Of a stretch of 64,000 nt of DNA, positions 28,233-47,840 are shown piece by piece. Each line of letters opens with the position of its first letter. The first letter of the stretch is position 1. The translations under genes were made by a program, and so were the position numbers. The DNA comes from Ignavibacteriota bacterium. GTDB lineage: Bacteria; Bacteroidota; Ignavibacteria; SZUA-365. The DNA lies in the NCBI GenBank assembly GCA_016218045.1, contig JACRFB010000072.1:124001-188000 (forward strand). The letters are read 5' to 3'. Below the pieces are notes generated by a model, which saw only the letters and a program-made list of their open reading frames with translations, was not told where the DNA came from and ran no database searches.

Positions 28233-28426
28233 GTGAGGAAACAGGATGCAGTAGACAGGAGACAGAGCCTGTCAGCTCGAAACTCCTGTATCCTCCCTCC
28301 TTACTCCTCACTCACATCAGATTGCTCTACCAAGATCGTGTGAGGAGACAGGATACAGGAAACAGGAGACAGAGCCTCTCAGCTCGAAACTCCTGTATCC
28401 TCCCTCCTGACTCCTTACTCACATCA
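28233..28426. repeat. Tandem 87/89-bp spacer duplication
   Basis: Copies at 28233-28319 and 28338-28426 share GACAGAGCCT, CAGCTCGAAACTCCTGTATC and the CTCACATCA end. Within each copy, the purine arm (AGGAGACAGGATACAGGA in copy 2) is complementary to the pyrimidine arm (CTCCTGTATCCTCC), so each can fold as an imperfect hairpin. Confidence 0.85.
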
Positions 28427-33491: not shown

Positions 33492-33860
33492 ATGGCCAAC
33501 ATGCTCAACTGGTTCGAAATCCCCGTCACGGATATGGATCGTGCCGCGGTGTTTTACGGCAAGATATTCGGCATTGAAATCCAACAGTCCGAAATGGGCG
33601 GCATACAGATGGGATTCCTCGGCAACTGGCAGGAGGGAATGACCGGCGCCCTGTGCAAAGGCGAATGGTACACACCGAGCACCGACGGCGCCATTCTGTA
33701 CCTGAACGGCGGCGACGATCTGGGTGTCGTGCTTGCAAAAATTCCCGACGCGGGCGGAACAGTCATCATGCCCAAGACTCATATCAACGACGACATCGGC
33801 TACTTCGCGATGTTCATCGACACCGAGGGCAACCGCATGGCGTTGCATTCGCAGCATTGA
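33492..33860 (+). CDS. VOC (glyoxalase-fold) family protein
   Basis: A GGAG box lies 5 bases before the ATG. The sequence follows the VOC pattern: NWFEIPVTDMDRAAVFYGKIFG, then IQMGFLG, ILYLNGGDDLG, a GGTVIMPKTHI strand, and DIGYFAMFIDTEGNRMALH. This is the PhnB/YdcJ-like or lactoylglutathione lyase-related group. Single-domain, 122 residues. The metal ligands are not all evident, so it may be a binding rather than a catalytic protein. It ends shortly before a strong terminator. Confidence 0.88.
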   Translation: MANMLNWFEIPVTDMDRAAVFYGKIFGIEIQQSEMGGIQMGFLGNWQEGMTGALCKGEWYTPSTDGAILYLNGGDDLGVVLAKIPDAGGTVIMPKTHINDDIGYFAMFIDTEGNRMALHSQH

Positions 33861-33882
33861 TTTTTCGCGCTGCTGAATCTTG

Positions 33883-33911
33883 AAGACCCGCATATTGCGG
33901 GTCTTTTTTTT
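33883..33911 (+). terminator. Intrinsic terminator of the VOC gene
   Basis: AAGACCCGCA (33883-33892) pairs with TGCGGGTCTT (33896-33905) around a 3-base loop and runs into a T tract. Confidence 0.93.
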
Positions 33912-33954
33912 CTGGCGAAGGACATGGACAACCGGGAAGACATCAGGATACGAC

Positions 33955-34240
33955 GGACGCGCCGGAGGCGCGTCCGTGGAGGCGCGCTAATCCCACGGGA
34001 CAGCGGGACGCGCCGGAGGCGCGTCCGTGGAGGGGCGCTAAACCCGCGGGACCGCGGGACGCGCCGGAGGCGCGTCCGTGGAGGCGCGCTAAATCCGCGG
34101 GACCGCGGGACGCGCCGGAGGCGCGTCCGTGGAGGCGCGCTAATCCCACGGGACAGCGGGACGCGCCGGAGGCGCGTCCGTGGAGGCGCGCTAATCCCAC
34201 GGGACAGCGGGACGCGCCGGAGGCGCGTCCGTGGAGGGGT
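33955..34240. repeat. 51-bp tandem repeat with internal palindrome, six copies
   Basis: Units begin at 33956, 34007, 34058, 34109, 34160 and 34211 with an exact 51-bp period; the last is partial. Each contains GGACGCGCC-GGA-GGCGCGTCC, a perfect 9-bp inverted repeat with a 3-base loop, followed by a variable 30-bp part (CGCTAATCCCACGGGACAGC or CGCTAAACCCGCGGGACCGC). Because 51 is divisible by 3, both strands stay open and give 17-residue Arg- or Gly-rich repeats, which I do not consider a gene. Confidence 0.95.
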
Positions 34241-34335
34241 ATCCCACGGAAATGCTATCTTGCCTGAAGTCGAATATGCTCGACAGCCAGCAATGGCGCC
34301 AGAGCATCGAAACGCTGCAAGCTGTCGCGACTTAC

Positions 34336-34415
34336 TCTAATCGTCTAATCGTCTGATCGTCCAATCGTCTGATCGTCCAATCGTCTGATCGTCTAATCGT
34401 CTGATCGTCTGATCG
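34336..34415. repeat. TCTAATCG octamer array, ten units
   Basis: Ten contiguous 8-bp units drawn from TCTAATCG, TCTGATCG and TCCAATCG. Only two positions vary (T/C at 3 and A/G at 4). Confidence 0.93.
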
Positions 34416-34433
34416 TCCGAAACAGAGCCGTCG

Positions 34434-34474: not shown

Positions 34475-34562
34475 CACTCCCTACTCCCAACTCCCAACTC
34501 CCTACTCCCAACTCCCAACTCCCTACTCCCAACTCCCTACTCCCTACTCCCTACTCCCAACT
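34475..34562. repeat. ACTCCCA / ACTCCCT heptamer array
   Basis: About twelve 7-bp units alternating ACTCCCA and ACTCCCT. It ends 4 bases before the ATG of the EamA transporter, so the gene has no ribosome-binding purine stretch; the array occupies that place. Confidence 0.9.
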
Positions 34563-34566
34563 CGCA

Positions 34567-35460
34567 ATGCCTTTTCTCGGAGAACTCAGCGCACTGACAA
34601 CGGCCATACTCTGGTCCGGAACGTCGATCGTGTTCTCGTCCGCGACGCGGCGTGTGGGGGCGATGCAGGTGAACATTACGCGGCTGTTTCTGGCGTTGAT
34701 TTTTCTGGCGGTGAGTATCGCCGTCATTGGCGCGCCCGTGAATGTGAGTGCAGAACAACTGGTTCTGCTGGCGGTGAGCGGAGTGATCGGACTCACCTTC
34801 GGCGACACCTTCCTTTTTCTCGCATTCAAAGAATGCGGCGCGCGCATCAGCATGCTCGTGATGGCGTCGGCGCCCGCGATGTCGGCGGTGCTCGCGTGGA
34901 TGTTCCTCGGCGAGGCGCTGTCGTTCTGGGGTGTGACGGGCATGGGCATCACGCTGGCCGGTATTGTGGGCGTGGTGGTGGAGCGGCGCGAGGCCGGAGA
35001 GCAGCCGCACGGCCGCGTGACACGGCGCGGCGTGTTCTACGCCTTCCTCGGCGCACTCGGGCAGGCGGTGGGACTCATCTTCGCCAAACTCGCGTTTAAC
35101 CTCGGCGACGTTCACGGCTTTGTGGCGAGCTTCACACGCATCGGCGCGGCGGTCGTGTCGCTCCTCCCCATCATCGTTTTCACTCCCTGGTATCCGAATC
35201 CCTTCCGCGTGTTCCGACGCGATCCTCGCGCGCTCACACTCACAGCCGTCGGCGCGGTGATCGGGCCCTATCTCGGCATCACGTTCAGTCTGATCTCGAT
35301 ACAACACACCGACGTGGCCATCGCCGCCACCATCATGGCCACACCGCCGATACTCATGCTCCCCATGGTCCGCCTCGTGTACAAGGAGCAGCTCTCCTGG
35401 CGCGCCGTCGCCGGCGCATTTATCGCCGTGGCAGGTGTGGCGGTGCTGTTTTTACGATGA
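34567..35460 (+). CDS. EamA/DMT family transporter
   Basis: Ten hydrophobic segments in two EamA halves; the first repeat starts LSALTTAILWSGTSIVFSSA and the second at RGVFYAFLGALGQAVGLIFA. Family features include the Gly-rich helix ends GLTFGDTFLFLAF and SAVLAWMFLGEAL. 297 residues, as usual. DMT exporters move amino acids or small metabolites; the substrate cannot be assigned. The start has no Shine-Dalgarno sequence because a heptamer array runs up to it. It converges with rlpA across a hairpin-forming array. Confidence 0.9.
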   Translation: MPFLGELSALTTAILWSGTSIVFSSATRRVGAMQVNITRLFLALIFLAVSIAVIGAPVNVSAEQLVLLAVSGVIGLTFGDTFLFLAFKECGARISMLVMASAPAMSAVLAWMFLGEALSFWGVTGMGITLAGIVGVVVERREAGEQPHGRVTRRGVFYAFLGALGQAVGLIFAKLAFNLGDVHGFVASFTRIGAAVVSLLPIIVFTPWYPNPFRVFRRDPRALTLTAVGAVIGPYLGITFSLISIQHTDVAIAATIMATPPILMLPMVRLVYKEQLSWRAVAGAFIAVAGVAVLFLR

Positions 35461-40808: not shown

Positions 40809-41159
40809 GATTTCACCGGACAGGTTGGGAGAGAATCTCCGGTGAAACTAGCAGGGTACTGCGTGAGAGTCAATTGTCCGGACAGCGGGAGAGCGGGACA
40901 GCGGGAGAGCGGGAGAGCGGGACAGCGGGAGAGCGGGAGAGCGGGACAACGGGAGAGCGGGACAGCGGGAGAGCGGGACAGCGGGACAGCGGGACAGCGG
41001 GAGAGAAGGGGCAAGAACCAACACGACTCCTGTCTCCTTCCTCCTGTCTCCTCACACACTCAGCTCAGATCGTGCTACCCATCTACCAACTACCCATCTT
41101 CCAACTACCATCTACCATCTACCAACTACCATCTACCACCTACCACCTACCATCTACCA
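40809..41159. other. Gene-free region filled by two array families
   Basis: Between two minus-strand genes. It holds a GGGACAGC/GGGAGAGC octamer array (40880-41006), then a composite CTCCTGTCTCC - AGATC - CTACC array (41031-41160). About 70 bp next to the cargo gene start (40809-40879) look like its leader. Confidence 0.8.
40880..41006. repeat. GGGACAGC / GGGAGAGC octamer array, about sixteen units
   Basis: Contiguous 8-bp units, mostly GGGACAGC and GGGAGAGC, with one GGGACAAC. The complementary words end the AI-2E-type transporter gene at 36309-36362. Confidence 0.93.

Positions 41160-47678: not shown

Positions 47679-47840
<162 letters not shown>

Follow-up and report, generated by a model that had tools for sequence, protein, structure and literature searches.

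The array described here raises the question of why a perfect palindrome recurs six times, at an exact distance, in the DNA between two genes of an Ignavibacteriota bacterium, and whether it is the repeated sequence or the structure it can form that has been maintained. We addressed this question in the window (the whole stretch of 64,000 nucleotides analysed), in the remaining genome and in the genomes of other species.

Layout of the array in the window

The preliminary description of this locus reported six exact palindromes with a 51-bp period, and an exact search of the window confirmed them: GGACGCGCC-GGA-GGCGCGTCC, a perfect 21-bp hairpin with 9-bp arms and a GGA loop, is present at positions 33955, 34006, 34057, 34108, 34159 and 34210. 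With up to 3 mismatches allowed, 12 matches were obtained in the window, each of the six palindromes being counted once per strand, where 0.04 would be expected from dinucleotide shuffles. The features of the region are:

33492–33860, + strand: upstream neighbour, a glyoxalase/bleomycin-resistance superfamily protein (PF00903)
33882–33906, + strand: ordinary intrinsic terminator of the upstream gene, ahead of the array and outside the hairpin family
33953–34237, + strand: direct tandem array detected by TRF, 51-bp period, 5.5 units, starting at the extended arm of the first hairpin
33955–33975, + strand: hairpin 1, GGACGCGCC-GGA-GGCGCGTCC, whose arms reach 11 bp
33976–34005, + strand: first of the 30-nt linkers that follow hairpins 1–5, each opening with the conserved tail GTGGA, the remainder being locus-specific
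34006–34026, + strand: hairpin 2
34057–34077, + strand: hairpin 3
34108–34128, + strand: hairpin 4
34159–34179, + strand: hairpin 5
34210–34230, + strand: hairpin 6, terminal, with a truncated linker
34567–35460, + strand: downstream neighbour, an EamA-type transporter (PF00892)

The six contiguous units reported previously hold as far as the hairpins are concerned, since there are six of these, but only five of the 51-bp units are complete, the sixth stopping after its hairpin and GTGGAGGGG. The 30-bp remainder of the units, for which two alternate forms had been proposed, occurs in three (units 1, 4 and 5, which are identical, unit 2 and unit 3), and GTGGAGG lies directly 3' of each hairpin. 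A link to octamer words had also been suggested; the octamer fragment GGGACAGCG is present in three of the five linkers of the window and in none of the linkers at other loci, and the link has no support beyond this locus.

Several known types of element were considered and rejected. The array is not a CRISPR array, because the linkers repeat within arrays and are not unique spacers, nor a series of intrinsic terminators, because the hairpins are not followed by a T-run and a terminator scan finds the one at 33882–33906 and none in the array. A protein-coding repeat was discarded because the periods at other loci (48, 49, 50, 51 and 54 bp) are not all multiples of three and the linker differences in the window alter the protein sequence encoded by the open frame 33924–34340. 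Rfam gave no gathering-score match in the window, and the sub-threshold matches lie around the terminator, none on the array.

Other repeats are frequent in this DNA. Arrays of 7- and 8-bp words occupy positions 34336–34417, 34476–34567, 40880–41005 and 47679–47825 of the window, and the commonest periods of the strong tandem arrays across 1.39 Mb are 7, 21, 16 and 8. At 28233–28426, tandem units of around 80–110 bp have halves consisting of mirror-like heptamer-word arrays (AGGAGACAGG... / ...CCTGTCTCCT), i.e., they are large imperfect palindromes made of short repeats; similar units were observed at L197:10049, L176:1, L177:1982, L202:12487 and L210:69. A match to the Por secretion sorting domain (PF18962) is also present in this genome and may point to a Bacteroidota-like phylum.

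A dispersed family with paired stem changes

When the 4.77-Mb genome was searched for structure as well as sequence, with a covariance model trained on 15 copies, about 29 strongly scoring copies emerged, spread over seven or eight loci between genes; this count is to be read with the assembly in mind (72 contigs, in which copy numbers within repeats may be wrong). A plain minisatellite with no other genomic copies, the alternative named in the preliminary description, is refuted by these copies, which are distributed over the contigs as follows:

C72 (the window array): six copies
C60: four forward and two reverse copies
C24: two blocks of four copies
C44: two copies scored by the covariance model, four read in the sequence
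C6: two copies
C57: three copies
C22 and C40: weaker single copies

All copies are intergenic, as judged from an ORF survey and from the sequences read. The exact palindrome of the window occurs in one other place of the genome, contig C60, as three copies 49 bp apart. A scan of 1.35 Mb of this genome for perfect hairpins (arms of at least 9 bp, loops of 3–5 nt; the blocks of C24, C44, C6 and C57 were read separately) yielded 88 in total, and those in tandem belong to this family. At two loci, hairpin arrays stand on both sides of a 16- or 21-bp satellite (C60, L010:1999-2375, inverted; C24, L110:2863-3196, direct). In C22, L027:2288-2324 contains a 17-bp perfect palindrome with a TCC loop, CCCCATAGGGACGCGCG-TCC-CGCGCGTCCCTATGGGG, whose GGACGCGCG core is near that of the family, and which adjoins a second, shorter match (L027:2352-2373).

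The stems vary by locus (GGACGCGCC, GGACGTGCC, GGACGGCCC, GGACGGCCG and GGTCGGCCG, with GGGCGGCCG and GCGCGGCCG in end copies), and the variation is paired. In an alignment of 15 sequences, all 135 of 135 pair cells are paired, with double-sided changes in four of the nine pairs (16 cells) and no one-sided change, values that were reached by hardly any shuffle and by no slid control; several members of the alignment were supplied by a hairpin finder, which inflates this pairing count. Two further comparisons are free of that ascertainment, namely a pattern with free pair positions, which gave 13 matches, all of them fully paired, from four loci and four different cores, and a foreign-species control. 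In that control, which covered 84,980 other species, 29 matches to a degenerate 26-mer were obtained, the majority in one protein-coding context and none fully paired; the exact 25-mer had no match in 84,980 species, and the two stretches of viral contigs that match the degenerate pattern are both unpaired. Ten distinct cores contain 88 Watson–Crick pairs, no G–T pair and two mismatches, one in each of two cores, and in copies C60-4 and C44-4 the stems are altered with pairing still complete. The formation of hairpins, raised as a possibility in the preliminary description, is therefore supported by relatives elsewhere in the genome that alter both arms together, and it seems to be the hairpin shape, not the stem sequence, that is kept. 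The GGA loop is present in nine of the ten distinct cores and the GTGGA flank lies 3' in most copies; loop and tail are conserved and orientation-specific.

A conserved GGA loop, together with a very stable RNA fold (z = -6.4) and the position of some loci just 3' of stop codons, would be compatible with a transcribed RNA element, acting either as stability or processing hairpins in 3' UTRs or by titration of a protein that binds RNA at GGA loops. We regard this as improbable: CsrA, the best known reader of such loops, is absent from the genome, the window array lies beyond the upstream gene's own terminator, the orientation of the family relative to neighbouring genes is inconsistent and the stems have no G–U pairs. 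A CsrB-like RNA sponge was excluded, as far as CsrA is concerned, by the absence of PF02599 from this 99% complete genome. Since gene-relative orientation is inconsistent and G–T pairs are missing from the stems of this genome, a process at the DNA level is likelier than one at the RNA level.

Divergence of hairpins and linkers

Between neighbouring units at four loci, the hairpins show 3 differences in 275 positions (1%), whereas the linkers beyond the tail show 88 in 335 (26%; p = 8e-22), a count that omits terminal degenerate copies and in which copies were recognised by their hairpins. Between loci, linkers have no significant similarity, with the exception of the two C24 blocks and of one marginal pair. 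Nevertheless, their length is constant, 27–33 nt in every array but that of C57 (mean 29.5, sd 1.5); the C57 spacings are of about 70 and 104 bp.

The preliminary description had raised replication slippage as a possible source of the exact period. A functionless minisatellite produced in this way, with the palindrome as an incidental component, would fit the uniformity of the window array, in which units 1, 4 and 5 are identical, and the abundance of other tandem arrays in this genome. Slippage alone is, however, insufficient, because within one and the same unit divergence is very unequal between hairpin and linker and because the spacing of about 50 bp recurs with unrelated linkers; neither the unequal divergence nor the constant linker length is predicted by a plain minisatellite. 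Given also the dispersed relatives with paired changes, we consider this explanation very improbable, the least probable of those discussed here. Taken as a whole, the interpretation given in the preliminary description is partly supported.

Strong conservation of hairpins over linkers, and linkers that are unrelated between loci and still of 27–33 nt outside C57, could alternatively point to a functional phased array. Cruciforms or extruded hairpins would then be sites for a structural DNA-binding protein or for gyrase, which targets the repetitive extragenic palindromes (REPs) of E. coli (PMC3733652), and a spacing of about 50 bp, or about five helical turns, would be selected while linker sequence remained free. 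We find this unlikely, though less so than the other alternatives: a sequence-specific duplex site is itself unlikely since stems differ by locus, periods from 48 to 54 bp and the wider C57 spacings do not keep a strict helical phase, and the family-level relatives (G001–G011) gave weak single model matches only, without comparable clusters.

Relation to REPs and possible origin

Di Nocera et al. sorted REPs into GTAG- and CGTC-tagged superfamilies (PMC3733652), and evenly spaced tandem REP arrays are known in P. fluorescens SBW25 (PMC3116915). The family described here shares with GTAG REPs and the REPIN-RAYT system (PMC3116915, PMC3733652) the short intergenic palindromes, of 20–40 bp and at many loci, the two-sided stem changes and the even tandem arrays. 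It differs from them in that the unpaired GTAG tag is absent, the conserved flank, as read on the GGA-loop strand, being a 3' GTGGA, which is a 5' TCCAC on the opposite strand, and in that no clear RAYT is nearby. In place of more than 100 copies, mostly in head-head or tail-tail pairs, there are about 29, mostly head-to-tail; REPINs are head-head or tail-tail dimers, whereas these are direct arrays, amplified locally. CGTC REPs (PMC3733652) are likewise short hairpins, have been reported in Chlorobi and Bacteroidetes and are apparently without a dedicated transposase. They have, however, an unpaired CGTC tag, a loop of 4–5 nt and A/T first stem pairs, while in the window family CGTC lies within the stem, the loop has 3 nt and the base of the stem is G–C, with no A/T.

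Four clear Y1_Tnp (RAYT-type) genes were identified in the genome, on contigs C46, C1 and C50, as well as a partial one on C18; none of them is flanked by repeats of the family as a cognate RAYT would be, and none of these four contigs carries a copy. Two additional Y1_Tnp matches, on C52 and C57, are below the cut-off, the latter some 10 kb away from the copies on that contig. A RAYT-linked REP was rejected, since the hairpins near RAYT genes are of different families. On C46, direct tandem hairpin arrays lie on either side of the gene, one of 72 bp and one of 74 bp, in opposite orientation, so the genome does contain examples of such arrays next to a RAYT. The two arrays have the form CCCACGCC-GTGA-GGCGTGGG and its complement, and about 5 kb away there is another 74-bp array resembling them, with about five units and no recognised RAYT gene; these features were recorded at L197:15400-17100 and L197:10049-11043.

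Taking these observations together, we consider it reasonably probable that the window array represents one locus within an orphan family of REP-like elements, which fold into hairpins, lie between genes, have multiplied locally in direct tandem with a unit of about 50 bp and presumably spread via a folded single strand. The copy number, which is small for a REP family, counts against a REP-like assignment, as do the absent GTAG and CGTC tags, the lack of copies on the RAYT contigs and the two mismatched cores.

According to this REP-like reading, the 21-bp element, once single-stranded (DNA or RNA), would form a hairpin of 9–10 bp whose triloop is GGA and whose 3' tail, GTGGA, is left unpaired, and both the spread and the uniformity of the family may run through this folded form. 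One of two routes would most likely be responsible: either a strand-specific (Y1/HUH-type, RAYT-like) enzyme, supplied in trans or since lost, of which the element would be a non-autonomous substrate, or hairpin-directed (templated) copying at the replication fork. Any effect of the arrays on the host would probably be modest at most and exerted on the DNA, for example by making forks pause, through local supercoiling or by offering a binding site to a structural protein.

Genomes of the same class give some indication of the wider relationships. The exact sequence, whose conservation in relatives had been put forward as informative, shows no conservation among the family-level relatives, whereas a related design is present in the class: G029, G056 and G024 contain GTAG-RGACG-NNCC-NNN-GGNN-CGTC hairpins, with inner stems that are varied yet paired. 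These have in common with the window family the GACG...CGTC foot, the 3-nt loop and covarying inner stem pairs, and are different in that GTAG is present, the loops vary and the hairpins are mostly dispersed singles or pairs. G056 has one pair of hairpins in direct orientation, at a distance of 53 bp, which recurs within a composite unit of 240 bp. Hairpin types with AGACGTCCC, CCCCGCCC and CGAAGCCT stems were also seen to alternate in that genome (G056:C6, L226:7133-7897), where part of the stretch recurs as a 240-bp composite unit. Homology to the GTAG hairpins, resting as it does on a short foot, is suggestive only; judged from such sequence resemblance, the window array looks like a lineage-specific, retagged REP relative. 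A broader proposal would be a class-wide superfamily with a GACG...CGTC foot that swaps its tags by lineage (GTAG, CTAC, GTGGA), and whose new copies arise about 50 bp from an existing hairpin through structure-directed copying that rewrites both arms and leaves unrelated DNA in between. We hold this to be rather improbable, slightly less so than the transcribed RNA element; a literature search on the foot sequence and on hairpin-templated correction returned nothing usable.

REPs are common repeats, yet the way in which they spread and the reason why the pairing of their stems is kept up are unsettled matters, especially for families without their own transposase. The family described here is small and countable, and the hairpin, which is kept, can be separated from the linker, which is free, within the same tandem units. 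Since the spacing is repeated with unrelated DNA, structure-directed copying and selection on the fold become testable against each other.
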